Origin: a virus
DNA: 58,729 nucleotides
Direction: 5' to 3' (one strand)
Virus record (IMG/VR): IMGVR_UViG_3300035701_000035
Span: 1 to 58,729 of that record
In this document: positions 21,849 to 54,783 of the stretch, piece after piece
Layout: every line of letters starts with the position of its first letter
Numbering within the stretch: the stretch's first letter is position 1
The notes under the pieces: model-generated
Seen by the model: the letters and a program-made list of their open reading frames with translations, nothing else
What the model was told of the DNA's origin: nothing
The model's database searches: none
Translations under genes and position numbers: made by a program

Positions 21849-21872
21849 AAGTTTAATAAACTTATAAAGTTT
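21849..21872 (-). other. Tandem AAACTT/AAGTTT hairpins between two cargo genes
   Basis: Three alternating half-sites, AAGTTT, AAACTT and AAGTTT, each three bases apart, can form either of two overlapping 6-bp stems just after the stop of the 1143-residue gene. The stems contain almost no GC and lack a U-run typical of a strong terminator. They could be weak terminators or RNA processing sites. A similar hairpin occurs at 29546-29560. Confidence 0.35.
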
Positions 21873-24800
21873 ATAGTATAAATGGAAGCCATGAGTTTAT
21901 ATGAACATACCCATTATCATTATGTGTTGCACCTCCTTTTTTTACTTTTTTTGTTGCTCCATACATAGTATTAATAATATCAGAATTTTTACTATTACTT
22001 TTAAGTCCTTGAGATTTTGATCCACCATTTGCACAAGCTATTAGATCATCAGCACTCATATTTGGATTGTTTTCTTTACAGTCATCATATGCTGTTTGCC
22101 AAACAGTTTTACCACTACCAGCACCTTGACCTGTAACTGTTTTTGGAGTAGGTCTATATGCCATTTCTCCACCATTACCTGGAGTTACCTTATAGTTTTC
22201 ATACATTTGATTTAATGCATCTGTTCTCCATTTATTTGTAATTCCATTTGCATAATAATTTCTAACTTGATTTTTTAATGCTAATTTAGAATTATCAAAC
22301 TGTTGATTAGCAACTGTATTTTGATCATACATTCTTTGAGTAGTAGCCTGATTTAATAAACCATTTTGATTTCTAATATCATTTGCTTTTAACTCAAATT
22401 GATTTGCTATATTACTATTAGCATTATTATACTTAGCAAGTACATCAGCTGCATTCTTAGATGCTTGACCTTGTATACCTGCAGATCTTGAAGACAATCC
22501 TTGAGCTCCAGCAAATTGTGCTGCACCTTGAGTTTGTATGTTTGCTTGTTCTGAATTAGCAGCTAGTTCTCTTGTAGGATCTAAATAAGTAGGTCTTGGA
22601 GTTCCAAGATTTGCATATTGTCCATAAGGCATATATTTCTTAATACCCATTAGATCTGAAAATGCTCCAGTAGTTTTAATAGTATCTTGTAACCATGTTT
22701 GTGCACGACTACCTGGTACAGGATATTCTTGATCTTCTGTACATGGGCAACTACCATCTGGATTAACAGCTATCTCTATTTCAGTACCATCAGAGTTATG
22801 ACAAGGACATGTTTTTTTAGCATCTTCTTCTGTAAGTTCATCAGCAGGTATATCTTCATATACTAAGTTTCTTTTACCTACCATATATTTATGACCAGCT
22901 GTTGTATCACCATATGTAGTAGACTTTCCTGCACCATGTCCATACCAAGTATTATTAGTATAATCATAAGTATCATCTAAAGGAGAAATTTTATTACCAA
23001 TTGCACCATATAATTTTCCCATTGATGATTCATCGGCTGCTCCTGAATGTACAAGACTAACATTACCTAAGAAATTATCCATTGCATATTTTACATCAGG
23101 ATTATCATTATATGCACCTTTTTCATAATCTTGATATGCTTTTGCATATCCGTGCATTGTAGATTGTTGTAATACTCTGTCTCTTCCACTAGGATCTAAA
23201 GGAACACCAAGATTAGTTGACATTGCAGCTACTGTTGTAAAACCTTTATCATTCATACTTTTTATTGCAGCTGTAGCTTCAGGTAAAGTATATAGTTGAC
23301 CTGTTTTTGGATTTACATATTTTTTACTTATAACATCACTTGGTTTATCTAATCTATTACCTATATCAGAAAATAATTGTGGATCTACATCATTAGCTTC
23401 AAACATCAAGTTTCTTTTTTGATGCATTAAAGCTGCCTTTATAATTTCATCATCCTCTGGTAAATTACCATATTTAACAGACCATTTTCTATTTAGATCA
23501 GTAGTTGTTGCATTTTTACCTCTCCAAGCTTCAGGATTATCAACAATTTCTTTTGTATTTTTTATAATCTCAGCTCTAACAGTTGGATTTTCTAAATTAC
23601 TTTTAATTAACAAATATTGAGAAGCTGCAACTCTTCCTGATGCTGTATTAGGAAAACCTTCTAATCCATCATTTGCAATATCTTCTCCACTAGGAATTGT
23701 AAAACCAGAACTTTTTAATCTTTGAGTTGTAATTTTACCATCAGTACCTTTATGTTTTACATTAAGTTGTGGTTCTTTATAACCAGATGTTTTTGGATCT
23801 TTATTTGGATTTTTAGCTTTCCATTCTTCTAAGTGTTTTTGTTTTGCATTCCATATTGCTCTTTCTAATTCTTGATCAGTCATGTTAGAACCATCTACAA
23901 TTATACCAGTTTGAGCTTTTACCATACGTGTAATAGGACCTGATGCAGGAACTCTTTCAGATCTACCTTGATAGTTTTGAGACATACCAGCTCCCATAGA
24001 CATACCATACTCTGCTTGTGGTATATCAAAGAAAGGCATATCATAACCACCCATAGACATTCCATACTCTGCCATTGGAGGAGCTTGTTGTTGCATTTGT
24101 TGTTGTTGCATCATCATTGCTTCTTCTTCTGACATAGGTTGACCTTCTTGACCCATTTGTTCTTGTCCACCTCCTTGACCTTGTTGCATAACTTGTTGTA
24201 CAAGTCCAGTAGCTTCTTCTTGAGAAGCACCCAACTGAGTAAATACTTGTACTATCTCTTCAGGTTGAACACCATTTTCTAATAAACTCATAACAACTTC
24301 AGCAGGTTCAGCACCTCTTTGTAAAGCAGATTGAACTTCTTGTATAACTTGCATCATCTCATCTTCTCCACCACCTTGTTCTTGTGGTGCTCCTTGTTGT
24401 TGCTGTTGTTGCATCATTGCCATTTCTTCAGGAGATGGTTGTTGCATACCTTCTTGTGCTCTTCTTAGTCTTCTCATACCACCACCATACATCATCATCA
24501 TCTCTTCTTGAGACATCTGTGGTTGTTCTTGACTTTGTGCAACTGGTTGACCCTGATTCATTTCCTGAGCTTCTTCTTGTGGGTTTTGCTCATTCTCTGA
24601 TTCCATTGTCTCTTCTGAATTTTCCTGTTGTGACATTTGTTTTTTCAACTGGTCATTCAGTGTGCTGATTTCTTTAGCAGGTAGTATTTGTTCTTCAGTA
24701 ATACCACGTGCTTCCATACATGGTTTTGCTACAGCAGGTATACCTTGTGGGAATCCTTTCATTGACTCTTGTGCTAATGCAAGACATCCAAGTTTGATTA

Positions 24801-25302
24801 CATATTTTTTCATCATCAACTCAGCAGACTTTCTCTCTATTGCATCTGAGTCAGGATCTTCTAATATTTTTCTATACTTTTGAATATCATATTGTTTAGC
24901 AAGTTCTGCAGGAGTAAATGATTTGTTTGTACCACCTTTACCAAACATTGCAAGAACTTTAGGATCTTTAATCATCATACCTCTAGTATCACTAAAGATA
25001 AATGTATCTTCAGGAAGACTTAAAGGTACACCACCACTATGATGTCTTGGTCCTTTAATGATTTGATGTTCTGGTATTCCATCTCCATTTATGTCACCAT
25101 ATACAGTTTCACCTCCTTCTGCTTCTAAGTTAGCTTCTTCTCTAGGGACAGCAGTAATATACTTACTTTCTCTAAGTTTTGGCTTACCAATGTAAGCATT
25201 ATAATCTGCACCACCCATTGAAGGAACATCATTTACTAATGCACCTTGGACTTGATATCCTGTTCTTGCTTGTGGTAATTTTTTAATTCTAACTTTTATC
25301 AT
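21871..25302 (-). CDS. Modular virion protein (1143 aa), AQxG motifs, Met/Gln-rich middle
   Basis: The protein starts with a basic leader, MIKVRIKKLPQARTGYQ, a variant of the AQxG tag. Residues about 65-75 contain GDINGDGIPEH, a DxNxDG calcium-loop-like motif, followed by a conserved stretch (HHSGGVPLSLPEDTF, FSDTRGMM). Residues about 220-430 are low-complexity Met/Gln/Glu. AQxG copies occur near residues 280 (LRRAQEGM) and 461 (MVKAQTGI). A CPC...GSCPC cysteine cluster lies near residue 815. The last third (PRPTYLDPTRELAANSEQAN onward) is Asn/Gln/Ala-rich helix, familiar from large Bacteroidota phages. The C-terminus reads KKGGATHNDNG then WLPF. No enzyme is recognised. The AQxG tags and position suggest an internal virion protein. 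Start choice: first ATG, 9 bases after the upstream stop. Confidence 0.75.
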   Translation of the reverse strand: MIKVRIKKLPQARTGYQVQGALVNDVPSMGGADYNAYIGKPKLRESKYITAVPREEANLEAEGGETVYGDINGDGIPEHQIIKGPRHHSGGVPLSLPEDTFIFSDTRGMMIKDPKVLAMFGKGGTNKSFTPAELAKQYDIQKYRKILEDPDSDAIERKSAELMMKKYVIKLGCLALAQESMKGFPQGIPAVAKPCMEARGITEEQILPAKEISTLNDQLKKQMSQQENSEETMESENEQNPQEEAQEMNQGQPVAQSQEQPQMSQEEMMMMYGGGMRRLRRAQEGMQQPSPEEMAMMQQQQQQGAPQEQGGGEDEMMQVIQEVQSALQRGAEPAEVVMSLLENGVQPEEIVQVFTQLGASQEEATGLVQQVMQQGQGGGQEQMGQEGQPMSEEEAMMMQQQQMQQQAPPMAEYGMSMGGYDMPFFDIPQAEYGMSMGAGMSQNYQGRSERVPASGPITRMVKAQTGIIVDGSNMTDQELERAIWNAKQKHLEEWKAKNPNKDPKTSGYKEPQLNVKHKGTDGKITTQRLKSSGFTIPSGEDIANDGLEGFPNTASGRVAASQYLLIKSNLENPTVRAEIIKNTKEIVDNPEAWRGKNATTTDLNRKWSVKYGNLPEDDEIIKAALMHQKRNLMFEANDVDPQLFSDIGNRLDKPSDVISKKYVNPKTGQLYTLPEATAAIKSMNDKGFTTVAAMSTNLGVPLDPSGRDRVLQQSTMHGYAKAYQDYEKGAYNDNPDVKYAMDNFLGNVSLVHSGAADESSMGKLYGAIGNKISPLDDTYDYTNNTWYGHGAGKSTTYGDTTAGHKYMVGKRNLVYEDIPADELTEEDAKKTCPCHNSDGTEIEIAVNPDGSCPCTEDQEYPVPGSRAQTWLQDTIKTTGAFSDLMGIKKYMPYGQYANLGTPRPTYLDPTRELAANSEQANIQTQGAAQFAGAQGLSSRSAGIQGQASKNAADVLAKYNNANSNIANQFELKANDIRNQNGLLNQATTQRMYDQNTVANQQFDNSKLALKNQVRNYYANGITNKWRTDALNQMYENYKVTPGNGGEMAYRPTPKTVTGQGAGSGKTVWQTAYDDCKENNPNMSADDLIACANGGSKSQGLKSNSKNSDIINTMYGATKKVKKGGATHNDNGYVHINSWLPFIL
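24010..24640 (-). repeat. Met/Gln-rich low-complexity coding repeat
   Basis: Within the 1143-residue gene, the + strand shows repeated ttg/ctt/cat triplets, encoding runs such as MMQQQQQQGAPQEQ and MMQQQQMQQQAPPM in frame, plus two copies of AEYGMSMG. It is a likely flexible linker and a plausible site of triplet-repeat length change. Confidence 0.7.
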
Positions 25303-25310
25303 TGGTATAA

Positions 25311-28300
25311 TTATAAATATTCAACTTGTCCTCCTGCTGCTAGATACTGTTGTAGTTCATAGGGAGTCATTTCAACTTCATCATCTTCTTCATAGAATGG
25401 ATTAGCATATCCACCATCTTGCATATAACCTCCGTATCTTCCACGATTTGTGTTTGCTGAATTACCACTAGATGAAATACTGTTTTCATTAGAACCAGTA
25501 TTGTTATAATCATACAAACCTGTTTTAGAACCAAAATCTTGCCACCACCCTTTATTAGTGTTACTAGCCATACCTTGATTCTGCATTGGATCAACAGAAT
25601 TTAATGTGTTGTTATACTCCATTGGAGCTTGTTTCATTCTATTCCATGCACCTAATATACCATTACTAATTGCATTACCTGCAGCTAATGATGCTTCTGG
25701 ATCAACACCTATTACATTCTTACGTTTTCTTTTAATACCAACATATTGACTTTCTTGATTTCCAGAAACATCAGTTACGGGTTTACTATTTGGTTGAATA
25801 GGGCTATTTGTATAATTATAAGATTGCATACTTTCAGGTAGAGATGCTTCTTCAACATCTTCTGCACCAAAAAAGTTTTGCATATTATTTAAACTCATAC
25901 TATTAGCACTAGGATCAAAATCTACTTTTTTAGCTCCTGCTGGTGGTGTTTCTAATCCTATTTGAGCTCTATATAATTCTGGTATAGCAATATCTCCTCC
26001 ATAAGCATAATCAGTATAGTTTATTGGACCACCATATTCTTTTTCTTCTGTCCAATCTTTTTCTTCACCTCCAACATAGTCTCTAGAATTTATTTCTTGT
26101 TTTACTAATTGTCCTTTTCTATTTATACCTCTTCTTTCTTTTCCATCTTCTGATTTTTTAGTCTGCAAATATTCTCCTCTATTCATTGTACGTTGACCTT
26201 TACGGTGACTTAACATTTCTTGTAGTTTTCCTAAATCTTGCATAGGAACTCCATTACCGGCACCAGCACCATTTACATCATAAATATCAATCCATTTTTT
26301 ACGACCTCCTAATAAACCTTTTTTAGTAGTATAACTTGCTACAGGATTACCAGATACAAGACCATTATAAGATCTACCATCATTTAAATAGTATGGAGTA
26401 CCTTTTTGTTTAACCCATGAACCTTGTGATTGAACTAATGGATTCCAAGGCATTAAGTCTCTCCAACCACTTTGTGGTCTTACTTCTTTAGGAATGTAAT
26501 TTATTTTAGAATTTTGAATACATCTGTTGTAAGTTGCACTCCATGTAGTTCCAGGTCCACAGTTTGTTTGTGTAACAACATTACTTGAGCCAACATCATT
26601 ATAAGTATCTTGTAATGCTTGATCATAAAAATTTTGATAATCAATATAACCTTGTTCTTCATTATCATAATCAGTATCAAAGTTTCTATTTGGATTAGCA
26701 GCTTCCCAATCTTCTCTTTCCCCTTCTTTCCAGTCTTCCTTAGTCATCTTATCTTGCATACCTCTTCTATTTCCAGATTTGGTATTAACAGTTATACCAG
26801 TCTGAGCTTCTTCAAGACCATATTGTTGGTAATAGTCTTCATCATCTCCACCATAGATAAATTTAGTAAGTGGTTCTTCAGCATCCATATCAATGAATCC
26901 TCCAAATGCAGCTGTAGGATCTGTATTAGATGGTGATGTTTTAAATGCATCTTCAGCAAGATTTGGTTTATAACCATCTTGTGTTAATAAGTTTAAGATT
27001 TGTGGATTCCCTTGTGCATTTTTATATATTTCTTTTGATATAGCTGTATTAGAATTATTTTTTAAAGTATCAAAGAAAGAATTTTTTGTATTAGATATAT
27101 CATTAGTTAAAGTATCATCTCTTTTACCTTGTCCTGGAATACCTTCATTAGAAGGACCTCCATCTGCATACATGGATACCATTTTTTTAATAAACCTATT
27201 TTGAGCTGCACCACCTTTTTTGAATTCATCATCAGGATCTGAATAATTACCTTGATATAAAGTATCAGGTGTCTCTTGTAATAATGCAGGATCAATGGTT
27301 GGTTTTTCAATTTTATCAGGATCAAGAATTTTACTTGGACCTACATCAGTACCACATGGACAATTACCCATAATATCTGGAGCCATATAGTTTAATGCCA
27401 GAGGATCAGTACATTGACATGGATTTGCATATGCATCATATGTTTTATATCCTAAATAACCTAAACCTCCTCCAATTAAACTTGTTTTTAAACCGAGTCT
27501 ATATTTATAATTTATAGCATTTCTTATATCTGAACCATAAGAACCTTCATTAGCAGGGTTAAGTATATTAGGTCCTAAAGCACTATTTGCATAACCATAT
27601 GTTGGTAATGATATTTCATCAACATTTTTAGCAGATGTTCTAAATAATTGATTTAGACCAGTAGTTCCAAGTGTTTCTAAAGTTCTACCAATTTTACCTT
27701 TCCAACCTAGTTTATCAAAAGTATTAGGAGCTACATCAGATATTTCATTAAGTCTTCCTACACTCTTTCCTAACACACCATTAGTATTCCACATACCATT
27801 CATGTAATTAGGAAATGGTGTACCATACTTACCAGTTCTTCCATATATTGGATTTATATCAATTGGTAGATTACCATTAGGACTATCAAGATAATCATCA
27901 TAAAATTCTCCATCGAAATTTTTTGGAGGATAACTACCTTCATAACCTGTTCTAATATTCTTTAATTTATTAGTTTCTAATAATCCTTGATCAGTAGTTA
28001 AGTATTTACCAAATCTACTTGCAGTAGTACCCAATGGTCTATTTATATCATACTTAGTTTTAGCACCAGTTGTAAGAGGATTACCAAGTGGATCAAATAC
28101 TTTTAATTCACCTGTTGCAGGATCTTGATTATAATAAAATCTATTTTTAAATGTAACTTCTTTAGCTTTAGCAGGAGTTGTACCAAAAGGTAATGGTTGA
28201 TTTGGTCCAAATGTATGTTTTAATTCAAAAAAGTTATTACCTTCATCATCTGTACCACCAACAATTTTTGAATCTAATGGATATATTCCACTAACTAAAC

Positions 28301-29501
28301 CATCTTGTTCTGCAAGTGGTTCTATATCACCAAGAGAAAAATTATTATTCCCTTCAGTAAGTTTTAGAATAATATTTTTTACATCATCTTGATATAACAA
28401 TAATCTATCTGCTTGTAAACTACCATCAGTTCCACCAGCATAAGTTCCATTTTGACTAAATATTCCTGTTTTTGGAGTAGCACCATTAAGTACATTCCAT
28501 AATTCATTTCTATTCTGAGTAAATGATGTTGCAAGTTTAGGTGCAAATTTAGGTCCCACATATGGTATCTTAGTCATTGCATGTCCTATTGCTGAAAATC
28601 CTGGTACAGCTTTTCTTATTTTAGAAAAGTTAGTCATAGGAGTATTAATCTTTGGTATATACTTAATAAGTGCGTCATATGCCTTACCAATACCACTACC
28701 ACCTAACTGAGCTCTAGGTAAATAATCTTGAGGTTCAAATGAATCAGATGCACTTCTATAATCTCCTATATAAGATGCTAGATCTGGAAATGCTCCTTGG
28801 TTCTGCATACCTGGAGTAATAGCAATTAAATCTTCTATAGAGTAAGGTTTTGTAAAGTTAGGGTTTCCTGGATTATCAAATTGACCCATTACAGCTTCTT
28901 CTCTTCCTAACTGTTGATTTGGATCTTGATCTTCATAATCATATCCTTGTTCTTCTCCACCATCTGCAAAATAACCACCATATCTAAATGCTTGTTCTTG
29001 CTCATCTTGTTCATTCTCTAGATGAGAAGTATCATTATTAAGAGCTTCTTCATCATCATAGTATCCCTGATCTGACATTGCAAGTTGTTCTTGTTCAGCA
29101 TCTGATGCTGCTCTTTCTGCATCTTCATTTGATTGTTGTTGTGGATCTTGTTGTGGATCTTGTGCTTCTTGTGGTTGACCAGACTCATTTCCTTCTATTA
29201 AATCTGGATCTTCATAACCTTCTTCAGCAAGTTTTGAAAGTGCAGATTTAATAAGCATCACAGATGTATTTTCATCTAATGCATACTCATTAATAAGTTG
29301 GTTATATATAAGATCTGGAGTAGCATCATTTTTTAATGAGATATAAACATCCTCATATATTTGATTTATTCTAGCTGGATCCATACTAGGAGAGGATACT
29401 TCCATACCCATTGCTGCTTTTTTCAAAAACTTTGCAGTTTTGTTATAGTACCCTGGAGTCTCTCCTGGAAGTGCTTTTCTTATCCTTACTTGTTTTTTCA
29501 T
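25311..29501 (-). CDS. Modular virion protein (1396 aa), three AQxG motifs, CTDPxAxNY cysteine motif
   Basis: The N-terminal leader MKKQVRIRKALPGETPGYY resembles that of the next gene. Residues about 115-200 are acidic and Gln-rich. Three AQxG copies lie near residues 262 (LPRAQLGG), 897 (LEEAQTGI) and 1177 (LYRAQIGL), with KKGG or YGG segments before two of them. A Gly-rich hydrophobic stretch (LIGGGLGYLGY, about residue 678) precedes CQCTDPLALNYMAPD then GNCPCG. CTDPxAxNY is a cysteine motif known from secreted Bacteroidota proteins. Near residue 985 there is CGPGTTWSATYNRC, matched in spacing by a small protein at 54786-55136. The C-terminus, MTPYELQQYLAAGGQVEYL, matches the end tag of the neighbouring giants. 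I recognise no enzyme. Inferred role: internal virion polyprotein. Confidence 0.7.
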   Translation of the reverse strand: MKKQVRIRKALPGETPGYYNKTAKFLKKAAMGMEVSSPSMDPARINQIYEDVYISLKNDATPDLIYNQLINEYALDENTSVMLIKSALSKLAEEGYEDPDLIEGNESGQPQEAQDPQQDPQQQSNEDAERAASDAEQEQLAMSDQGYYDDEEALNNDTSHLENEQDEQEQAFRYGGYFADGGEEQGYDYEDQDPNQQLGREEAVMGQFDNPGNPNFTKPYSIEDLIAITPGMQNQGAFPDLASYIGDYRSASDSFEPQDYLPRAQLGGSGIGKAYDALIKYIPKINTPMTNFSKIRKAVPGFSAIGHAMTKIPYVGPKFAPKLATSFTQNRNELWNVLNGATPKTGIFSQNGTYAGGTDGSLQADRLLLYQDDVKNIILKLTEGNNNFSLGDIEPLAEQDGLVSGIYPLDSKIVGGTDDEGNNFFELKHTFGPNQPLPFGTTPAKAKEVTFKNRFYYNQDPATGELKVFDPLGNPLTTGAKTKYDINRPLGTTASRFGKYLTTDQGLLETNKLKNIRTGYEGSYPPKNFDGEFYDDYLDSPNGNLPIDINPIYGRTGKYGTPFPNYMNGMWNTNGVLGKSVGRLNEISDVAPNTFDKLGWKGKIGRTLETLGTTGLNQLFRTSAKNVDEISLPTYGYANSALGPNILNPANEGSYGSDIRNAINYKYRLGLKTSLIGGGLGYLGYKTYDAYANPCQCTDPLALNYMAPDIMGNCPCGTDVGPSKILDPDKIEKPTIDPALLQETPDTLYQGNYSDPDDEFKKGGAAQNRFIKKMVSMYADGGPSNEGIPGQGKRDDTLTNDISNTKNSFFDTLKNNSNTAISKEIYKNAQGNPQILNLLTQDGYKPNLAEDAFKTSPSNTDPTAAFGGFIDMDAEEPLTKFIYGGDDEDYYQQYGLEEAQTGITVNTKSGNRRGMQDKMTKEDWKEGEREDWEAANPNRNFDTDYDNEEQGYIDYQNFYDQALQDTYNDVGSSNVVTQTNCGPGTTWSATYNRCIQNSKINYIPKEVRPQSGWRDLMPWNPLVQSQGSWVKQKGTPYYLNDGRSYNGLVSGNPVASYTTKKGLLGGRKKWIDIYDVNGAGAGNGVPMQDLGKLQEMLSHRKGQRTMNRGEYLQTKKSEDGKERRGINRKGQLVKQEINSRDYVGGEEKDWTEEKEYGGPINYTDYAYGGDIAIPELYRAQIGLETPPAGAKKVDFDPSANSMSLNNMQNFFGAEDVEEASLPESMQSYNYTNSPIQPNSKPVTDVSGNQESQYVGIKRKRKNVIGVDPEASLAAGNAISNGILGAWNRMKQAPMEYNNTLNSVDPMQNQGMASNTNKGWWQDFGSKTGLYDYNNTGSNENSISSSGNSANTNRGRYGGYMQDGGYANPFYEEDDEVEMTPYELQQYLAAGGQVEYL

Positions 29502-29545: not shown

Positions 29546-29560
29546 AAACTTTAAAAGTTT
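29546..29560 (-). other. AAACTTT/AAAGTTT hairpin in intergenic gap
   Basis: A 7-bp inverted repeat with one central base lies right at the stop codon of the 1529-residue gene, in the 57-base gap before the next start. It resembles the element at 21849-21872. It is AT-only apart from two GC pairs, so it is more likely a processing or weak termination site than a strong terminator. Confidence 0.3.
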
Positions 29561-32500
29561 AATGATCTTCAATGATATATCCATCTTTAACATACTCATC
29601 AATTTCTTTTTTTGATAGACGAGTTACAACTCCACCTTTTTTATTTTTATAACCAGGTGTATCACTTATTTGTTTATATGCATTACCTCCTGTAAATGGA
29701 ATTGATATGTCCCTATTCCATTTATCAAATGTTTGTTTATTCATTTTTTTAACAATCTGTTGTCTCCATTTTTCAAGTTGTTCTGGTTTAGCATTTTGTA
29801 TATCTTCTATTTTTAAATCAAGACCTGCTCTCATTTCCATTACAACATGTAGAGCTGGAGCAGTAGAAAAATAATCATTTTTTTGTGCGTTTAACAATTC
29901 CTGATAAGTATTTGGTAATCTATCTTCAGTATTATTTATAGTTTTTAAATTCCTACGATTTAACATTTGATTATTATCTAAGTTTGTAGTATGAGATATG
30001 TTATCATATAAATTTCTACCTTTTTCATCTGGAGTTGTCTTTTTCATAAGATCAATAAGTTCAGGATCATAAAACTTTTGTTTAAAGTTTTGTATACTTG
30101 AATTAGGAAATAAATTAGAAAATAATTGATCTCTTTCATATGTACCACGTAAAGTTCTAAACAAAGCCGTTGCAGGATCTTCAGGATACATTTTATCAAA
30201 GGTAGCTCTATTATCTAAATATTCAAGTTGTTTATTACCTAAATCAGACAACTCATCTATTGTATAAAAATCACTTTCACCTAACATTTTTTGAGGATCT
30301 GATGCCATATTCATCATAGCATTTCTTGCTGCCCATCCATCTGAAAAATCTTTAAATTTAAAATCACCTACTCCTTTAAATAAATCTGGACCATGTTCTG
30401 GAATATTTAATAAATAATTTTTAAGAGAATTACCTGCATCTATTAAACCTTCTTCTTTCCAATTTGTATCATAATCAGCAGGATCAATATTATACCATTC
30501 TTCACCACGATGAGGGTCATCACCATATTTTATTGCTGAATTTCCACCTGGACTATTTCTATATTTTGTTAAATCAACTTTAGGAACATCAGTTTTTATA
30601 ACTGGACTTTTTGGTTTAGACATACTCCTCATAATTGGAGTTATACCAGGTAAAATATCATCTACATTATGTAAACTGTTTATTGTATTTCTAAATGCAT
30701 TGGTTGGTTTTAACAGTTTACCAATAGATTCCAAACCATATTGAGCTTTAGGAAGTTCTCCTCCTTTGTTAAATTTTGGTTCAGCAGAACCATATACTTT
30801 TCTAGTAAAATCAAAGTTTCCTGTTTTTAATCTTTGTAACTCCTCATTTTGTTTTTTACTTGCAAAATTATCTTGTTGTTTAATTTGTCTAATTAAATCT
30901 TTATAAAACTTTTTATGTTTAGGTGGAAGTAAATAACTAGTATATGTATCTATAAGTTGTGTATACTGATCAGGATTTTTAATTTCATGTTCAAACATAT
31001 TTGTTTTTCCAAGACCAGTGTTTGATGCTTCTTCAACATAAGCTCTAAGTATATCATTTTCTTTATTTTTTGTTATGCTTGTTAGAAAATCACCATCTTG
31101 ATTAGTTTCATATATAAACTTCTTAGGTTTTCCAATTTGTTTTTCTAAATCAAATCCTACAGTATTATTTACTACTGGCATTGTTTGCCCTACAACAGGT
31201 ACATTAAAGTTTGCAATTCGTGCAGATTGAGCAACAGGAATGATATTAGTAAAATCATCTGCACCAAATAAAGAAAGTTGATTAGAAATAGTTTTTGCTT
31301 CTGGTACTATTGGTTTTAATTCTTGTAAAGCTTTAATTACTTGACCTACACCACCACCTCCTTGTAATCTTTGAAGAGCACCTCCATTTTTTCTATTAAA
31401 TTTAGTTGGTAGTCTACCAATTGAATGATTGTGTCGTTGTGTATTAAGTCCTGGATTTTGTTTTAATACAGAAAATTCTCCAAAACCTAAACCTTTACCT
31501 AACTTATTTAAAGGATTAGTTATAGATTCAAAAACAGGTTCTGCTGTATGTAAACCAGGATGACCTAGTGCAATACCAGAACCTGGAGTTGCAGCATCAT
31601 AAAGTCCTGTATATTGAGTATTAAAATTAGGATTACTTAATACAGTACCAGGTTTACGTAAAGCATTTAAACTTTTAAATGTATTAAGTGCAGGCTTTGT
31701 ACCCCAATAAGCAAATAAAGCATTTAATGCAGCAGATCCATAATTTCCTGCTTGAAACTCATCCTTAACATCTTTAATATTTTCTGGTACTTCTAGTAAA
31801 AGACCAGAAGTCATTAATGGATTATCAAAACCTGAAAGAATAGTTCCTAAACCTTTTTTTAAACCAATAGTATTTTTAACTCCTGAACCAAGTAAATTAT
31901 TTCCTGCAGCCATTCTATTAGCATACTTAAGATTACCTAATGCATTAAAACCTTTACCTAATCCATATGATGTACCCATATCTACTAACTCATGACCAAG
32001 AGCATTTGTAAGATTTCCTTGATCATAACCTCTTCTTAAATTCATTCCAATTTTAAATGGATTAAATGCTTGTAGTGGTGTAAAATTTCTTAATATTGAA
32101 AGAGGATTATCATTACCCATTACACCCAGATCAACACCTTTTTCTTTTTGAATACCAAGTTTAGTGTCATAACTTAAATTACTATCTCCCCACATTTCTT
32201 CTTTAGGGTTTGCTGCAAAATATAAAGCATCTAATGGATATTTAAGTACATCTCTAAGTTTGTTACCTGAAGTATTTTCATTAATACCATTCCAATTTTT
32301 GATATTCTCTTTGTTATGCTTTTTTGCCATACCAAATGATGTATTTGCTACATCATTATATAAATCACTATAAGTTTGTGTTTTACCATTTACTTTTTCA
32401 TCTGACTCTAACTCTAATAGTGTTTTATAAATTCTTTCAGGATGATTTTGTACTGTATTTAATATATCAAGTTTACCTGCTTGAGTAGTTCCTGCTTTAG

Positions 32501-34148
32501 TTAATGCTTGGTTTATAAAGTATTTTAAGTCATTTGCAGATAAATTAGAAATATATTTACCTGCTGCATCATTAAACTCTTTTAACTCTCCTTCTTTTCT
32601 AGCTTCTTGAGCACCTACTTCATAGTCTACACGTTTTTTTGCTGCTACTTGTGATCTCATATCTGCAAACTGATCATCTATATTTGCATATGTATAGTTT
32701 GGATCGTAATTATTTTTTGGATCTTTTTTATATTTATTATATTCTTTATCTCCTCTTTCATATTTATTTTTAATATAACCAAGATATTCTTCAGGATTTG
32801 TCATACTAGTTTTGTTCTTTTCAAAAGCAGATACTGGATCATCTGACAAAAATGTATTATCATCTAGCCAACTACTTTTAGTTGGTCCTGATAAACTATT
32901 AACTAACTCCTCTTGTACTTGAGCATATACATCATCAATAATTTTTTTAGTAGGTTCTGCAAACTTAGTTTTTAAACCAGTTTTAGTTCCTACTTTAGGA
33001 GAAAGTTCTGAAATAACTTGGTCTGTAGTTTTTCCTTCATTAACTGCTTTTTTAACTACACTTTGAGTTACCTCACTTGTATAGTTTTCCATAGCACCTT
33101 TCATAAGAGGTCCCATTTGTTCTTCAACTTGTTTACGATCTAATCCCCAAGTGTTTACAAACTGATCTGCTTGAAATCCATTTTTTAAAATTCTATTACG
33201 TACAATATCTAGTGGATATAAATCAGTAAATCCTCTATCATTTTTAATCACAAGATATTTATTTTTTAACTGATTTTCAAGAGATTCCATTAAAGGTTGT
33301 CCATCTTCACCTAATACGGGATTACCTTCTCCATCTATTACAGGAGTTTTACTATCTGTCACATGTGTTGGTAAAGATTGAAATGGTTTTATTTTATCTC
33401 CTTTTTTAGATTTATTAAAAGTTTCATAATATGTCTTGGCACTTTCATCATAGTCATTACTCCTTCTTTTACTGTCTTCTATTCTTGCTTCTTCTCGTCT
33501 AAGATTATAATCTTCTTGTTTTTTTTGTTTAGTATAATCTTCTTGAGCTATTTCTTCTTGATTAATAAGTTGAAAAGCTTCTTCAGTAATACATTGTCCT
33601 TTATATGGAATCTTACCTTCACCACATACTAAAGGCTCTCCTGTCTCAGTAAAAGGTGCATGATAATCTGGAATAAATTGTTCAGGTATTTTAATAGTTT
33701 TTTCTTCTCTTTGATTACCTGCATATGGAAGACCTAACTTTTTTTCTAAACTGTATCTATATGCATTTTCTGCAATTGGATTTCTTAAATAATTACGAGA
33801 CTTGTATGTAAAGTCATGTTCAGGAATAGTTTCCCCTTGTGTCCAATTATTTATTTGACTAAATGTATTAGCTTCTTCTGGTGTTCTTGGTCTACTATAG
33901 TCTTGTGCACCTATGTCATAAGTAGGAACTTGTTCTACTGTAGGAAGATCTTGAGAATTAAAATTATATCCAAAATTATTTTGTACTCCTGTCATAGGTT
34001 CATTAACAACAGGTGCAGTTTTTTCAATATCCCGTGGATGTAATCTTGGATAAACAAAATTTCTTATATTATTACTTAGTTTTTTTAATCCACCACGTTG
34101 TGCCTTTGGTAATGATTGTGGAATACTTGTTATTCTATATTTTGCCAT
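29559..34148 (-). CDS. Modular virion protein (1529 aa) with LPKAQxG linkers and shared C-terminal tag
   Basis: The protein opens with MAKYRITSIPQSLPKAQRGG, placing an AQxG motif at residues 16-19 after a basic leader. Residues 180-195 contain CGEGKIPYKGQC, one of four Cys-framed C-x-x-G motifs in the window. Residues about 690-900 are Gly/Ala/Leu-rich and may contact membranes. Near residues 920-935 NGGALQRLQGGGG forms a junction, and near 1133 GGELPKAQYGLES forms another; the segments on each side look like separate folds (about 200 and 390 residues). The chain ends with KKGGVVTRL then LSKKEIDEYVKDGYIIEDH, matching an internal segment of the 1403-residue neighbour. I recognise none of the folds. 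Three bases separate its start from the upstream stop. Likely a packaged polyprotein. Confidence 0.7.
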   Translation of the reverse strand: MAKYRITSIPQSLPKAQRGGLKKLSNNIRNFVYPRLHPRDIEKTAPVVNEPMTGVQNNFGYNFNSQDLPTVEQVPTYDIGAQDYSRPRTPEEANTFSQINNWTQGETIPEHDFTYKSRNYLRNPIAENAYRYSLEKKLGLPYAGNQREEKTIKIPEQFIPDYHAPFTETGEPLVCGEGKIPYKGQCITEEAFQLINQEEIAQEDYTKQKKQEDYNLRREEARIEDSKRRSNDYDESAKTYYETFNKSKKGDKIKPFQSLPTHVTDSKTPVIDGEGNPVLGEDGQPLMESLENQLKNKYLVIKNDRGFTDLYPLDIVRNRILKNGFQADQFVNTWGLDRKQVEEQMGPLMKGAMENYTSEVTQSVVKKAVNEGKTTDQVISELSPKVGTKTGLKTKFAEPTKKIIDDVYAQVQEELVNSLSGPTKSSWLDDNTFLSDDPVSAFEKNKTSMTNPEEYLGYIKNKYERGDKEYNKYKKDPKNNYDPNYTYANIDDQFADMRSQVAAKKRVDYEVGAQEARKEGELKEFNDAAGKYISNLSANDLKYFINQALTKAGTTQAGKLDILNTVQNHPERIYKTLLELESDEKVNGKTQTYSDLYNDVANTSFGMAKKHNKENIKNWNGINENTSGNKLRDVLKYPLDALYFAANPKEEMWGDSNLSYDTKLGIQKEKGVDLGVMGNDNPLSILRNFTPLQAFNPFKIGMNLRRGYDQGNLTNALGHELVDMGTSYGLGKGFNALGNLKYANRMAAGNNLLGSGVKNTIGLKKGLGTILSGFDNPLMTSGLLLEVPENIKDVKDEFQAGNYGSAALNALFAYWGTKPALNTFKSLNALRKPGTVLSNPNFNTQYTGLYDAATPGSGIALGHPGLHTAEPVFESITNPLNKLGKGLGFGEFSVLKQNPGLNTQRHNHSIGRLPTKFNRKNGGALQRLQGGGGVGQVIKALQELKPIVPEAKTISNQLSLFGADDFTNIIPVAQSARIANFNVPVVGQTMPVVNNTVGFDLEKQIGKPKKFIYETNQDGDFLTSITKNKENDILRAYVEEASNTGLGKTNMFEHEIKNPDQYTQLIDTYTSYLLPPKHKKFYKDLIRQIKQQDNFASKKQNEELQRLKTGNFDFTRKVYGSAEPKFNKGGELPKAQYGLESIGKLLKPTNAFRNTINSLHNVDDILPGITPIMRSMSKPKSPVIKTDVPKVDLTKYRNSPGGNSAIKYGDDPHRGEEWYNIDPADYDTNWKEEGLIDAGNSLKNYLLNIPEHGPDLFKGVGDFKFKDFSDGWAARNAMMNMASDPQKMLGESDFYTIDELSDLGNKQLEYLDNRATFDKMYPEDPATALFRTLRGTYERDQLFSNLFPNSSIQNFKQKFYDPELIDLMKKTTPDEKGRNLYDNISHTTNLDNNQMLNRRNLKTINNTEDRLPNTYQELLNAQKNDYFSTAPALHVVMEMRAGLDLKIEDIQNAKPEQLEKWRQQIVKKMNKQTFDKWNRDISIPFTGGNAYKQISDTPGYKNKKGGVVTRLSKKEIDEYVKDGYIIEDH

Positions 34149-41300: not shown

Positions 41301-43842
41301 CTCCAATAATTGCATACAAAGCATCAGCAAGAGGACTTGCTATAGGATTAGTAGAAGAATAGTATGTATTAAAAAATGTATTATATGTTGTAGCTGATGC
41401 TGCAAGAGGAGCAGCTGCTGCAATTTGTGCTGCTAATGCAGCATCAGATGGACCAGGTGTAGCAGCACTTGTAAATCCACCAGCAATAACTTTAGGTTGA
41501 TTGATAGTTCTTTTACCAATCATAGATATAATAGCTTCAGCAACTCCAGAAACTATCATAGCAGCTACTATAGAGTTAGCTAATAGTTTAAATTTAGGAT
41601 GTCCTGCAGGTTCTTGGAATGCCATATTAGCATAACCATTTAAAATACCATAAGACTTAAATTCTGTAGTAGAAAGATAAGGAGTTCTAAACATTGTATC
41701 CGGAGAATGGAATGTAAATATATCCGTAGGTATAGTTTGGTTATTTATAATTTTTACACTACCAGTTCCAGTTTCATTTAATATATAAGGATCATTAAAA
41801 TTATAATTGTGATCAGTTGGTAGAGGTGAGTACCCTATAGGAAGAATAGTATTATATGGATAGTTTGCATATAGTCCTGTTCTGTTTTCAGTAACTGCTC
41901 CTCTTAATGCAAAAGTTCGAAAGTTATTTACCATTCCTTTTGCAATGATAGTTTTATTTCCTTCACGTGATCCACGTAGAATTTCATAACCTACAATACC
42001 AGGTATATCATTTCCATCTTGATCTTTTGGTAACATAATATTTTCAAATACTACACCCATTAATCTTATTCTAAAATCAGAACCAACTGTAGTTGTATTT
42101 GGATTAGGTCTAAAGTGTACTGCATCTGTTGATGCACTATTATTTATAAACCCTTCAGGAAACTTATGATGTCTAATTGGTTTACCACATAAATCAAATC
42201 GACCTGGAGTTTGTCCATTAGGAATTTGAGCAGCAGGACCTGTCCAACAGTAAGTACTTGAATTCCATAAATCTGGTCTATTATTTGGATATCTTTCTGT
42301 AGACTCCCAATAACCCATTTCTCCTATTGCAAGTAATATACCACCATCACTCATTACCCACTGACCACTTGCATTCAAAGTTGCATCTGGTAAAGTAGAT
42401 GGATATGAAAGTTGAGTTGCTGTATTGTATACTTCAAATACTTTATCATCTGTTGCTAAAGTATTTTTTTCATTTAGATCTGCTGTTTCAAATAAAGTAG
42501 CTCCTCCTGGTATAGAGAAGTTTTTTGGTGCTCTTCCAGGAATATGATATGCAGAAGTTTTATCTCCAGTATTATATACCCATCTTATATAGAAAGTATA
42601 AACCTCATCTCTTAGATAATTGGTTTTATTACCTCCTTTCATATATGTATCTGCCTTATACTCAACACTTGCCCATCTTGTTCTAATCATATTAGCAAGT
42701 GGTTGGTAATTGAAATCAAATTTAGATCTAGGACCAACTCTTAATAAATATCCATTTACATCAGTAATCTGATCTGATGTTTCAAATACAGGTGTTGTTA
42801 TTGGTATTTGTTCTAATGGAATTTTAATATTACTTATATTAATTTGATCAATAGCTATCCTTGATGTTTTTGTAGAATAAAATCCCATTTGTGTAGCAAC
42901 TGTCTGTTGATTTGTTGCTTCTACTATTGCTAAAACAAACTCATCAAAGTTTTCTGAATCTGCAGTTACATCAAGTGTGAGTGATCCCTCTAAATCATTT
43001 ACCGTATATATAAACTGAAAGTTACTTTGTGAAAACCAATCAGTAACTTTTTGTCCTTTAATAGTATATGCAATAACTGCAAAGTATGTACCATTTGCCA
43101 TTGTACCACCAGACTGTCCTAATGTTAAATTAAGACATGGTGTCTCCATTAGTCTTGCTAATCTAATATGTTCACAGTCTAAGTAATTTATTTTAGTTAT
43201 AAAATCACAATCATTAAGGGGAGTAGATAATTCAGTCCATGTTACTCCTGGCCATAAAAAAGTTGTGTCAACTCCATTAGAATAAAAGTTCATACTGGTA
43301 GTTCCACCACCAACCCAAGCATAATCTAAAGATGGCCAAGTTTTAGGATCACCTACATTTAAATATCTATCTGGATTAAATGCATCAGCAAAATATACTT
43401 GCCATGAACAATCTTCTTTTTCTCTAGATGAACCAGATATAAGATATCGTTTATCAAAATTTAAACATGCATCTTGTACTATCTCTCTATATCTACAAGA
43501 GTCTTCTTCATATAAACCAATCTCAGATGTAATTCTTGTTCCTGTAATAGAATGACCTGCAGTAAAAATTATCCATTTATCTGAATAAAGATATATAGCT
43601 CCAATAATATATTTATCAGTTACTGTTATGGGCATGCTTGCTCCAGTAGTACCACATAGAATATTTGATATTTCATTTGATAATGTACCTACGTCACCTT
43701 CAATAGTATTATTTACTACATTGATGGCATGTGTCCACATTCCTTCAGAAACAAATGATGGATCAGAATCTTTGTTTAACCCTTTTGTAAAAGAGTTACT
43801 TATGATTTTATTAGTATCTTGTAAACCTTTATCTTTTGCCAT
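38362..43842 (-). CDS. Tail muzzle / stabilisation protein, 1826 aa (crAss-like)
   Basis: The N-terminus NSFTKGLNKDSDPSFVSEG, then THAINVVNNTIEG and GTLSNE, is the typical opening of the large tail stabilisation (muzzle) proteins of crAss-like phages, related in role to P22 gp10. The chain is mostly beta-rich with many Tyr, Asn and Asp residues. Residues about 750-880 interrupt it with a hydrophobic Ala-rich stretch (AALAAQIAAAAPLAAS) and are followed by LNQLAYYFAEGADLAIKVF and QQVSHGFYSNM, which I associate with this family. It should form the wide distal tail tube that contacts the host and holds cargo. Its place after the ring proteins and before the cargo genes fits. The ends share bases with both neighbours: TAATG downstream and a 2-base gap upstream. 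Confidence 0.82.
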   Translation of the reverse strand: MAKDKGLQDTNKIISNSFTKGLNKDSDPSFVSEGMWTHAINVVNNTIEGDVGTLSNEISNILCGTTGASMPITVTDKYIIGAIYLYSDKWIIFTAGHSITGTRITSEIGLYEEDSCRYREIVQDACLNFDKRYLISGSSREKEDCSWQVYFADAFNPDRYLNVGDPKTWPSLDYAWVGGGTTSMNFYSNGVDTTFLWPGVTWTELSTPLNDCDFITKINYLDCEHIRLARLMETPCLNLTLGQSGGTMANGTYFAVIAYTIKGQKVTDWFSQSNFQFIYTVNDLEGSLTLDVTADSENFDEFVLAIVEATNQQTVATQMGFYSTKTSRIAIDQINISNIKIPLEQIPITTPVFETSDQITDVNGYLLRVGPRSKFDFNYQPLANMIRTRWASVEYKADTYMKGGNKTNYLRDEVYTFYIRWVYNTGDKTSAYHIPGRAPKNFSIPGGATLFETADLNEKNTLATDDKVFEVYNTATQLSYPSTLPDATLNASGQWVMSDGGILLAIGEMGYWESTERYPNNRPDLWNSSTYCWTGPAAQIPNGQTPGRFDLCGKPIRHHKFPEGFINNSASTDAVHFRPNPNTTTVGSDFRIRLMGVVFENIMLPKDQDGNDIPGIVGYEILRGSREGNKTIIAKGMVNNFRTFALRGAVTENRTGLYANYPYNTILPIGYSPLPTDHNYNFNDPYILNETGTGSVKIINNQTIPTDIFTFHSPDTMFRTPYLSTTEFKSYGILNGYANMAFQEPAGHPKFKLLANSIVAAMIVSGVAEAIISMIGKRTINQPKVIAGGFTSAATPGPSDAALAAQIAAAAPLAASATTYNTFFNTYYSSTNPIASPLADALYAIIGGYPATSMSVADTALAAAVTTASIPGVTSAITIDGTIEFPKWTYLDPLTRALGALNQLAYYFAEGADLAIKVFYAITPYRQYALQQVSHGFYSNMIKLSTSNLSRFRMEDGFYIRDNVQEVPKYQDYLGVYHSYAINNLKRSDAVVVRTKSGPYYNGLYPNGVTIGPNLITSGLADKSLVTIGTIVQNSTDPAFIDNNLPDFNEDAKDTPFSLPVASHYGALKGRVRNQYGQLGSENEIVITPCEQQLQYYNIPVTQWTCPTNNILYTFSTITRTPILFGGDTYINRYTEKNNMMMFNDWLYGQPDGFEYNYYLHSMIPLARFKVNSINYDTSFLSEVFNFGSPAMPGTGAFPGAFYNMDYYVTSSRFYNYKTDVEEGSWIGDRYAGLWSVRDAYFYLANSGIRDFFVESEVLIDFRQQSPIEGGKHYDPYRYTDYQAMFNMNPNIMGMLSEYLYDYSLSVSKLYNQYFSQGNLQSRYYDPKVAKLCYTYYPDRIIYSLPQQDEAIKDSWFMYLVNNYKEFKGQISGVKAINKSGIFITFKNESPLMYQGVDTLETDLNTKITIGDGGLFSQPTQSVINADNSYEYGSSQNRLSIINTPVGIYYMSQNQGRIFSYGKGLEEISQAGLKWWFILYMPYKLTQDFPTYPWQDNPVAGIGCQATYDSSSTILYFAKKDFHLKEEFKGRVTYRPLNPDGTGDDFILDDNVNLRFELGNSYLFDDASWTISYDPKNQYWISFHDWHPDLLIPTKDIFVSSKRNTLWKHNYICDGFCNYYGKQYGFELEFPVVSGQSVMTTKSIEYILECYRRNGNSCIDQHHVLDYNFDQAIVYNSEQVSGYLNLNLYPKNDVNLSLQFPRLGTDLSSYDILFSKEENKYRFNQFWDITRDRDEFPIGSNYPPTGPLIPGTTVLLGSYASENTWITSPDGFTRVLNPNNMNYDKVELQRKKFRHYLNFINLRKNQCDDVNIIFKMSSSKNQYSPR

Positions 43843-52494: not shown

Positions 52495-52541
52495 TTTGTT
52501 TTTTTTTAATTAATAAATATACTATAATATAGTAAAAGTTT

Positions 52542-52564: not shown

Positions 52565-52582
52565 GAAAATTGTTTATTTCTT

Positions 52583-53281: not shown

Positions 53282-53284
53282 GTC

Positions 53285-53779
53285 TTATTTCTTTTTACGT
53301 GCATTCTTCTTTGCACCAGCAATTCTATCAGCAGCAGTTGCTTTGTTAAATGGAGGAGCTAATGCAGCAAACTTAGTTGCTTTAGTTGCACCACCTACTT
53401 TCATTTTAGTTTTTACAGGTCCACCTTTAGCTTTAACTCGTGTAGGAGGAATTGTATCAGAATAAAGATTAGTTTTACTTGTATTAAAAGTTGGACTAGA
53501 TCTAACTCGTTCTATATTATCTTTTTTTAGCAATTCTGGAACAGGACTATATCCTCCTATTGTAGGCATTTTTCCTATACCCATTTTATTTGCTAGATTA
53601 ATATCATTATTATAACGCTCATCTATTCTTTCAGTATCTTCTTCACTTAATGGACCTTGTGTTGTGTTAGTAACTATACCATTTTGAGCTTTTTTTAAAG
53701 ATGACATAACAGTCTTTGTTCTAGTTTCAAAATTCTTTCTGAATGTAGTTATCGGATTTTCTTTAGTAGTCTTTTTCAT
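53285..53779 (-). CDS. Basic virion protein with AQxG leader, 164 aa
   Basis: A basic leader of about 30 residues ends in SSLKKAQNGIVTN, so the AQxG motif is at residues 31-34. The rest is Lys/Ala/Pro-rich with KAKGGPVKTKMKVGGATKAT near residue 120 and ends in KKNARKKK. It has no recognised domain. The leader resembles those of the giant modular proteins, and the lysine-rich body would bind DNA. Likely an internal head protein; the leader may be cut off. Confidence 0.55.
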   Translation of the reverse strand: MKKTTKENPITTFRKNFETRTKTVMSSLKKAQNGIVTNTTQGPLSEEDTERIDERYNNDINLANKMGIGKMPTIGGYSPVPELLKKDNIERVRSSPTFNTSKTNLYSDTIPPTRVKAKGGPVKTKMKVGGATKATKFAALAPPFNKATAADRIAGAKKNARKKK

Positions 53780-53780
53780 T

Positions 53781-53933
53781 TTATCTTTTTTTAGCCATTG
53801 CTTTAAATGTTTTTGCCAAAGCTTTTCTCTTTGGTGTACATGTAGGTTTTGACATAGGAGTACAAAAACCTTTATGTTTTGGATTCACAGCATTTTGAAT
53901 CCAGTCTTTATCTGTCTTCTTTTTAGTTGCCAT
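53781..53933 (-). CDS. Small basic phage protein, 50 aa
   Basis: I read this frame from the ATG at 53933 to the TAA at 53781-53783. It starts MATKKKTDKDWIQNAVNPKH and continues KGFCTPMSKPTCTPKRKALA, ending in AMAKKR. The DWIQNAVNPKHKG and CTPxxKPTCTPKRKALA blocks are familiar from short conserved proteins of many tailed phages. No function is known to me. It is one base from the next start. Confidence 0.7.
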   Translation of the reverse strand: MATKKKTDKDWIQNAVNPKHKGFCTPMSKPTCTPKRKALAKTFKAMAKKR

Positions 53934-53935
53934 GA

Positions 53936-54217
53936 TTATCCACCATATAATGGTCTTTCACCACAACCACCACTTGCAAGTCTTGCTGTTCCTGGAGGAC
54001 ATCCATGTGATACTGGAGTACTACCACCTGCTGCATATTTAGTTGCAGGATTTACAATACTTCCTCCCATTTCAAATTTTTTAGGTTTTGCAACACCACC
54101 TTTTTTCATGGTATCTGTTCTTGCATTATATCCAGGCATACCAACTATGTCTTGTGTAATACCACCTTTTTTCATCTTCTTTGCTGCTCCTCCACAGCTC
54201 ATGCATTTAGTTGCCAT
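53936..54217 (-). CDS. Small Gly-Gly and Cys protein, 93 aa
   Basis: The chain has CMSCGG at residues 5-10 and three KKGG/MGG-type repeats (KKMKKGGITQ, DTMKKGGVAK, FEMGGS), then HGCPPGTARLASGGC near the end. The KKGG pattern is the one found at junctions of the giant modular proteins, and the C-terminal CPPG...C belongs to the Cys-framed motif group. No function is recognised; it may be an accessory part of the same system. Confidence 0.6.
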   Translation of the reverse strand: MATKCMSCGGAAKKMKKGGITQDIVGMPGYNARTDTMKKGGVAKPKKFEMGGSIVNPATKYAAGGSTPVSHGCPPGTARLASGGCGERPLYGG

Positions 54218-54232
54218 AATATATATTTTAAA

Positions 54233-54514
54233 TTAACAGTTCCATTTTCTTAAAGACTTATTGATTCTAGAATCAGGATCATTAGCAGTCTTTGCACTTG
54301 TTAGTTTTTTCTTCATTCCACTCATCCTACTACAGAAACTTTTACGTCTACCTGCAGCAGCACTACCAGGTTTAAGTTTAGAAGGTTTTGTAGTTACAGC
54401 CATTTTTAATTTTGAAGATGGGTTAGCTGCTCTATAAGAAGCTACTCCTTTAGCATTTAATCCTCCGGTTTTATTCTTACCTTCTGATCTTGTCCAAGCT
54501 GGTGTCTTTGCCAT
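54233..54514 (-). CDS. Widespread small phage protein (DUF6321-like), 93 aa
   Basis: AKTPAWTRSEGKNKTGGLNA, then KGVASYRAANPSSKLKMAVT, then RRKSFCSRMSGMKKKL match a small basic protein that I know from many phages and some algal viruses (I recall the domain as DUF6321; not checked). The block after residue 75 (DPDSRINKSLRKWNC) is its usual end. Function unknown. The ATG overlaps the upstream stop as TAATG. Confidence 0.7.
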   Translation of the reverse strand: MAKTPAWTRSEGKNKTGGLNAKGVASYRAANPSSKLKMAVTTKPSKLKPGSAAAGRRKSFCSRMSGMKKKLTSAKTANDPDSRINKSLRKWNC

Positions 54515-54783
54515 TATCCTTTCTTTTTAACAGTTGATTTTTTAATAGGAAATCCATTTTTATCATAACCTGGTTTTCCTTTAAACTTTTGTCTATATCT
54601 ATCTTGTTTTGCTTTGTCCATTAATGCAAATTGTTTATCCATTTCAGGTTTTGTGTTTGCGTTTAATCCTCTAAGCTTAGATTTATATTCTAAATCACCA
54701 TAATAAAATGTACTATCTGCTGTAGATATACCTTTTTGAGCTTTTGGTAAAGCTTTTTTAACCATTGTTTTTTTCTTTACCAT
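54514..54783 (-). CDS. Basic protein with LPKAQKG leader, 89 aa
   Basis: The leader MVKKKTMVKKALPKAQKGIS puts the AQxG motif at residues 15-18. After it come DSTFYYGDLEYKSKLRGL and a helical, Lys/Gln-rich stretch (KQFALMDKAKQDRYRQ), then KKSTVKKKG. It is a short example of the leader shared with the giant modular proteins, so it is a good test case for cleavage. No fold is recognised. Confidence 0.6.
   Translation of the reverse strand: MVKKKTMVKKALPKAQKGISTADSTFYYGDLEYKSKLRGLNANTKPEMDKQFALMDKAKQDRYRQKFKGKPGYDKNGFPIKKSTVKKKG

Follow-up and report, generated by a model that had tools for sequence, protein, structure and literature searches.

We describe a short linear motif that delimits modules in the cargo proteins of crAss-like phages. 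The stretch analysed is the whole of IMG/VR virus record IMGVR_UViG_3300035701_000035 (58,729 nucleotides; hereafter the window), a 58.7 kb fragment of one such phage, in which the original prediction had singled out the tetrapeptide AQxG as a linker marking six virion proteins. The motif is real, selected and module-delimiting, and the proteins that carry it are a variant of the polyvalent type. To judge from the sequences, AQxG is what stands out most of a degenerate delimiter that appears interchangeable with (Y/F)-Q-x-G-G at orthologous sites.

Results

The motif is confined to six proteins of the window

Open reading frames (ORFs) were called mechanically in six frames, from stop to stop, and frames of at least 40 aa were scanned for the motif. 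As originally claimed for both number and positions, eleven copies of AQxG and one of ARTG were found (Table 1), all within six minus-strand ORFs and none in any other such frame. Four of the carriers, ORFs A to D, lie between the muzzle gene and the cargo-2 and RNA-polymerase genes; the two small ones (54514-54783 and 53285-53779) are rich in Lys and encoded close to the capsid genes. Shuffling residues, which preserves each protein's own composition and nothing else, gave an expectation of 1.9 for the 11 AQxG copies in the six proteins (maximum of 7 in 500 shuffles) and of 0.17 for the 12 matches to [LIVMP]x[KRQE]A[QR]xG (maximum of 2), a pattern not matched anywhere in the 13,447 residues that make up the rest of the window. 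Codon usage varies among the copies (GCT or GCA, CAA or CAG, GGT or GGA), supporting the earlier claim of selection at the protein level. The GG pair reported ahead of the motif was found as quoted in two copies, GGELPKAQYG (residue 1135 of ORF B) and GGELVKAQTG (residue 1050 of ORF A).

Searches with the muzzle and cargo-1 proteins yielded 128 related loci (L numbers below), which are not independent samples and for which portions of many records were read. There, A[QR]xG occurs 143 times in 83 cargo ORFs against 60 expected, and 82 times in 450 other proteins against 88 expected, so that it is not common in the other proteins of these phages. Two related patterns are more strongly enriched in the cargo ORFs: [LIVM]PxAxxG (103 against 7.7 expected) and QxGG (177 against 41). 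Enrichment in these loci is confined to cargo ORFs. A chance origin from a composition rich in Q, A and G has a negligible probability: some of the ORFs are indeed Q- and G-rich, and a few AQxG matches in relatives are of the composition type (e.g., GPRHAQGG and VIAQAQGG), but this explanation is refuted by the composition-keeping shuffles, both for the 12 matches in the window and for the 103 in relatives, and by the conservation of alignment columns.

A single-sequence search with ORF A retrieved zero relatives, whereas the muzzle and cargo-1 alignment did retrieve them. No match was obtained by tblastn of ORFs D and B and a junction peptide against isolated phages, and no relative was found in bacterial genomes scanned with the cargo-1 alignment. 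Leptolyngbya phage Lbo-JY46, an isolated phage whose recorded host is a cyanobacterium, encodes downstream of the muzzle a cargo-type protein of 484 aa (L069:27868-29322) beginning with MKIRIIGLPKAQIGME, that is, with the head motif. To our knowledge, crAss-like phages are otherwise known from Bacteroidetes.

The delimiter is broader than AQxG

The logo of 128 sites reads L/M/I-P-K/Q/R-A-Q/R-x-G-G/M/Y/I-x-V/I. In the columns of ORF C and D orthologues, A and G show little or no variation and Q is present in about half, so that Q is not essential; the heads of both ORFs are retained in every orthologue aligned. Across orthologues of ~50% identity A and G, and at some sites also L, P or K, are near-invariant in a surrounding linker that varies, and hydrophobic residues are conserved on both sides of the core, including V/I positions beyond it. 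As far as the alignments tell, the conserved core is A-x-x-G, preceded at a distance of three positions by a hydrophobic residue, and the consensus is L-P-x-A-x-x-G-φ-x-V.

At one position of a module termed B4 the window has KNKKGG-tail-stop, L051 has KNKLGG-AIPKARLG and the next module, and L103 has KAQKGG-tail. On the strength of this exchange, and of the xxGG form at the site orthologous to residue 1179 of ORF C, we read AxxG and xxGG as versions of one delimiter. AQxG was thus rightly taken as real and selected but is too narrow a definition, Q being dispensable and xxGG forms occurring at the same positions. In the carrier at 53285-53779, the N-terminal 38-45 residues are conserved in two relatives and the remainder differs.

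A C-terminal tail is paired with the delimiter

A 25-residue element, xGGxIExELTxEEIxEYxKGGYIVEE (C-tail), was found in 128 copies in 84 proteins. Fifty-eight copies are terminal, 56 of which end 1-2 residues ahead of the stop. Among 65 non-redundant internal copies, 59 are followed by xAxxG or xxGG within 20 residues (random mean of 10.5, maximum of 22 in 1,000 trials), a typical junction being GYIVED-ISVPELTKAQKG. When a DNA pattern for ED-I-(S/T)-(V/I)-P-x-L-x-(K/Q)-A-Q-x-G was run over the whole viral collection it matched 18 places, and the C-tail stood immediately upstream in 18 of 18. The delimiter also precedes the C-tail itself in 94 of 121 copies (19% at random). The ends of high-scoring segment pairs were examined as well: right ends fell near AQ motifs in 16.5% of cases against 4.6% at random, and left ends without clear excess. 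Since these orthologue pairs are not independent, we relied on the C-tail test, whose non-redundant set partly removes the kinship among relatives.

With its LTxEEIxEYxKGG the C-tail resembles a double-glycine (C39) leader (LSxxELxxIxGG, N-terminal, cut after GG), but it is one residue longer, belongs to C-termini and in many cases carries one G where the leader has two; this identification was rejected.

Modules are exchanged between cargo ORFs

In an all-against-all comparison the same segments recurred in different ORFs and in different orders. Module B4, at the C-terminus of ORF B in the window, is internal in L051 and in L004 lies within the N-terminal portion of ORF A. The SET domain of ORF A, matched slightly below the cut-off, recurs in ORF B of a second phage (residues 656-757) and in a third phage (461-603). 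The zincin-like HELSH module of ORF A, for which no homologue was found among the fetched loci, may be a metallopeptidase on the basis of its HExxH motif; HExxH occurs in several relatives' cargo ORFs, with DUF6782 in L005. Relatives' cargo ORFs contain lysozyme, SLT, VanY, amidase, SET, GNAT, metallopeptidase and ADP-ribosyltransferase (ART-PolyVal, below the cut-off) modules, combined in one chain as lysozyme, SLT and VanY (L161), lysozyme and amidase (L017), SET and GNAT (L164) or SLT and the sub-cut-off ART-PolyVal (L149). In L161, KADDG at 1333 and DKGG at 1586 stand 21 and 9 residues ahead of the SLT and VanY domains. Most cargo modules of the window had no Pfam match, and PHROGs and NCBIfam gave nearly nothing for its cargo ORFs.

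Modules were found both fused and as separate ORFs, with frequent fusion and fission at this locus. A modular, polyvalent-like architecture in which modules move between ORFs at the delimiters is well supported, and the motif's role as a boundary marker, central to the original prediction, is upheld by the tail-plus-head junctions and the swapping.

Frequent fusion and fission, together with the motif's position in flexible linkers, would also suit a passive origin, in which the motif and the tail are leftovers of repeated in-frame fusion and recombination, or a preferred flexible spacer, and are not read by any partner. We consider this unlikely: A and G, and at some sites L, P or K, stay near-invariant at ~50% identity while the linker varies, conservation extends to the hydrophobic and V/I positions outside the core, and copies are present near the N-terminus of small basic proteins.

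Two further features of these ORFs were noted. Cargo ORFs adjoining the muzzle at L161:2-5458, L017:14106-20678 and L131:770-5950 bear several peptidoglycan hydrolase modules per chain, which perhaps serve cell-wall passage during ejection. A recurrent linker element (SYSRSLDATNKFF...KPSSRKNKIYDPHAKYYQDGG) is present in many relatives' cargo ORFs, e.g., at residues 516-566 of the window ORF at 34151-38362.

ORF D is a cargo-protein-1 homologue with motifs in disordered linkers

ORF D is encoded downstream of the muzzle. When its D1 domain was compared with a small database, cargo-1 homologues from csAssE-Sib (3e-7), Fpv1 (9e-5) and phi4:1 (0.005) were matched. An AlphaFold model was built from 20 sequences (mean predicted local distance difference test score, pLDDT, of 61). 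Among its matches in BFVD are several entries named "Cargo protein 1 compact domain" and the protein of phi4:1; Foldseek found no match for it in the PDB. Residues 1-43, 226-293 and 400-464 of the model have a pLDDT below 50, and folded blocks come after these disordered stretches in each case (at 44-209, 313-376 and 467-745). The motif copies lie inside the disordered stretches, with the one at 463-466 extending two residues beyond 464. In ORF D, the one well-modelled protein, the motifs therefore fall between folded domains and not within them, as the original prediction had expected. The model of an ORF B module was poor (mean pLDDT of 49.6), with the motif in a low-confidence stretch, and was not used further.

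In crAss001, the segment of cargo protein 1 (gp45) modelled at the portal comprises residues 425-552, starting at the AFGG at residue 425 and continuing through it (PMC10172136). D1 may correspond to this segment. Whereas gp45 has ~424 residues before the portal-bound domain, D1 lies near the N-terminus of ORF D behind its LPQARTG head, and the motif form of gp45 is A[FY]GG. This form occurs four times in gp45 (at 207, 330, 425 and 560; 0.11 expected), adjoining ordered segments, and [FY]QxGG four times in cargo protein 1 of phi4:1 (at 81, 324, 515 and 548; 0.04 expected); neither was found in the other proteins fetched from the respective genomes.

Genomic context

Along the direction of transcription the order of genes is muzzle, ORFs A, B, C, D and E, an ORF of 2,470 aa and the RNA-polymerase ORF. 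In crAss001 the same place holds cargo protein 1 (gp45), cargo protein 2 (gp46) and RNA polymerase-associated cargo, all detected in virions (PMC10172136). Since the clade yielded no cultured phage, we infer virion location, packaging and ejection: the late-gene synteny of ORFs A-D beside the muzzle and the cargo-1 homology of ORF D make it probable that the four large carriers are located in the virion and ejected. The phrase "six virion proteins" of the original prediction can be kept on this basis for those four, but the same basis covers neither of the two small ones.

The RNA-polymerase ORF (3-11189) has DFDID near residue 2465 and a conserved HEAWHGF zincin motif, and runs off the contig. 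Near the capsid genes, a 93-aa protein (53936-54217) contains several xxGG (MKKGG twice, EMGG and AAGG) and has a Gly- and Cys-rich C-terminal part; a Lys/Arg-rich DUF6321 protein (54233-54514; E 7e-18) sits between the small motif proteins; and a GIY-YIG type homing endonuclease gene (55787-56407) lies amid the capsid-region genes. A relative (L062:793-2349, genome G005) has a run of small Lys/Arg-rich proteins near its capsid genes, several with GGSLRRS-like tails and some starting with KYQKGGIAK, which could be DNA-packing or internal head proteins with terminal tags of their own.

Table 1. Motif copies, C-tails, modules and genes of the window, with window positions and residues of the encoded protein.
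Feature	Position	Strand	Protein and residues	Remarks
AQKG (LPKAQKG)	54730..54741	(-)	89-aa basic protein 54514-54783, 15-18	
AQNG (LKKAQNG)	53678..53689	(-)	164-aa protein 53285-53779, 31-34	
AQEG(G)	36059..36070	(-)	ORF A, 765-768	directly past internal C-tail
AQTG (GGELVKAQTGLQV)	35204..35215	(-)	ORF A, 1050-1053	
AQRG(G) (head RITSIPQSLPKAQRGG)	34092..34103	(-)	ORF B, 16-19	
AQYG (GGELPKAQYG)	30735..30746	(-)	ORF B, 1135-1138	
Variant head KKAAMGMEV	29406..29417	(-)	ORF C, 29-32	KKAQMGMEV in some orthologues; L, K, A, G invariant in 12 orthologues
AQLG(G)	28701..28712	(-)	ORF C, 264-267	L261, P262, G267 invariant in 12 orthologues
AQTG	26796..26807	(-)	ORF C, 899-902	A899, G902 invariant in 12 orthologues; Q in 5/12
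AQIG	25956..25967	(-)	ORF C, 1179-1182	orthologues mostly xxGG form
Head ARTG (VRIKKLPQARTGYQV)	25258..25269	(-)	ORF D, 12-15	V4, P10, A12, G15 invariant in 20 orthologues
AQEG	24448..24459	(-)	ORF D, 282-285	pLDDT<50 linker preceding helical domain
AQTG	23905..23916	(-)	ORF D, 463-466	disorder stops at 464; strand 467-470 opens next folded block
Internal C-tail (GFINAKLSPEEIQEYAKGGYIIED)	36095..36166	(-)	ORF A, 733-756	abuts AQEGG junction
C-terminal tail (YELGDEIDEATKRKLEKLGYTFEII)	34154..34252	(-)	ORF A	common to C-termini of relatives' ORFs
Terminal C-tail (KGGVVTRLSKKEIDEYVKDGYIIED, H, stop)	29565..29639	(-)	ORF B	
C-terminal tail (EVEMTPYELQQYLAAGGQVEYL)	25314..25397	(-)	ORF C	C-tail likeness by eye
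SET-domain module	37925..38224	(-)	ORF A, about 47-146	E 5e-4, slightly below cut-off
Zincin-like HELSH module	35216..36058	(-)	ORF A, HELSH at 908	flanked by two motif copies
D1 domain	24679..25257	(-)	ORF D, 16-208	cargo-protein-1 family
ORF A	34151-38362	(-)		motif carrier
ORF B	29559-34148	(-)		motif carrier
ORF C	25311-29501	(-)		motif carrier
ORF D	21871-25302	(-)		motif carrier; cargo-protein-1 homologue
ORF E	18607..21813	(-)		occupies the cargo-protein-2 site; resembles gp46 in position and appearance; without motif
Muzzle protein	38362..43842	(-)		context gene; without motif
Virion RNA polymerase ORF	3..11189	(-)	HEAWH zincin near 846	GGDFDIDK; candidate protease; without motif
Major capsid protein, C-terminal part	57762-58718			

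Discussion

The sequences show that the motif exists, that it is limited to cargo proteins and small basic proteins and stands between modules, that tails and heads meet in junctions, and that modules are swapped. As to the function of the motif, we slightly favour, at a little less than even odds, an uncut docking or threading tag over a processing site, because gp45 is modelled through its AFGG, small proteins carry multiple copies and no motif-specific protease was found. The delimiter occupies disordered linkers of cargo proteins that comprise several modules; a motif-bearing head tends to precede each module, and in A- and B-type ORFs the 25-residue tail tends to close it. Through the delimiter each module would be held by the same component of the virion (the portal, tail barrel, muzzle or inner face of the capsid), and the modules of a long chain would be led out in order. 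Cargo ORFs are built through fusion, fission and swapping of such head/tail units, like phage polyvalent proteins. The conserved hydrophobic residues flanking the core and the several xxGG of the 93-aa protein at 53936-54217 count in favour of docking.

Several points weigh against it. The near-terminal placement of the C-tail and the internal copies beside a delimiter are what cutting predicts. No enriched motif form was found in the cargo-1 proteins of Fpv1 and csAssE-Sib, and in Leptolyngbya phage Lbo-JY46 the cargo-type protein bears just a single head copy. That the AFGG of crAss001 and AQxG are the same signal is a supposition, and the docking partners named above are putative candidates.

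Less probable in our estimate, and still a serious contender, is a processing site. Here the chain would be cut at the G, or after it, by a single virion-borne protease, for example the zincin of the RNA-polymerase ORF or one from a cargo protein. Before or after ejection, the short basic heads would be removed, the modules freed and the internal C-tails turned into true C-termini. This agrees with motifs placed between modules and within disordered linkers (in the ORF D model), with heads of 10-34 residues that look like short propeptides, with modules existing fused or as separate ORFs, and with tails that end 1-2 residues from the stop when terminal (56 of 58) and abut the motif when internal. 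All six genomes covered at that place have an HEAWH zincin linked to the RNA polymerase, but zincins are also present in crassviruses without the motif, which leaves the zincin unsupported as a motif-specific protease. There are precedents: DdrB and DarA of P1 undergo cleavage and the processing of polyvalent proteins is a predicted role of zincins (Iyer et al., PMC5512222), and some giant-phage head proteins shed propeptides of 20-24 residues (PMC10052503). On the other hand, the virion RNA polymerase of N4 is packaged unprocessed (PMC5512222), and gp45 of crAss001 is modelled uncut through AFGG 425-428 (PMC10172136). The capsid, portal, scaffold and terminase ORFs are without the motif, small proteins bear several xxGG copies, and visual inspection of the head genes of genomes G003 and G005, where no profile search was made, revealed no dedicated prohead protease. 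Moreover, with a delimiter ahead of the C-tail in 94 of 121 copies, cutting everywhere would remove the tail.

Known systems resemble this one in part. A short N-terminal head common to unrelated internal proteins is also found in the capsid-targeting sequence of T4 and in cargo-loading peptides, but the delimiter is also internal, is present in many copies per chain and is paired with a C-terminal tail. The substrates of prohead proteases in giant phages and T4 (gp245, gp175 and gp21; PMC10052503) likewise have a short linear motif in several copies, internal ejected proteins and short N-terminal propeptides; AQxG differs in having no E at P1 and in being absent from capsid, portal and scaffold, the proteins in which such a motif would be shared. 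The phage polyvalent proteins (Iyer et al. 2017, PMC5512222) are alike in joining several enzymatic modules of unrelated kinds into a single long product of a late gene, and in strong mosaicism. At least two disparate activities per chain, as that class demands, are found in relatives, and the window itself offers the sub-cut-off SET domain (E 5e-4) and the HExxH motif. The conserved linear delimiter and common C-terminal tail belong to the crAss-like cargo ORFs: in term searches of that one paper, the word "linker" was absent from the main text, and the passages retrieved describe no delimiter and do not name crAss-like phages.

More generally, and with somewhat greater reserve than for docking itself, we propose that crassviruses may use a linear code, an LPxAxxG/QxGG head plus the C-tail, that addresses modules for packaging, ordered ejection and possibly release by a protease, with group dialects such as A[FY]GG (crAss001 gp45) and [FY]QxGG (phi4:1). 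In crAss001 the presence of the cargo has been shown but not its addressing signal (PMC10172136). For the loading, ordering and ejection of megadaltons of phage cargo proteins, the motif and the tail offer concrete sites to mutate, as well as targets for existing virion mass-spectrometry data and for co-folding with portal, ring and muzzle proteins. The delimiters also provide an objective guide for dividing proteins of 1,000-2,000 residues that otherwise lack annotation into modules that can be annotated one by one.

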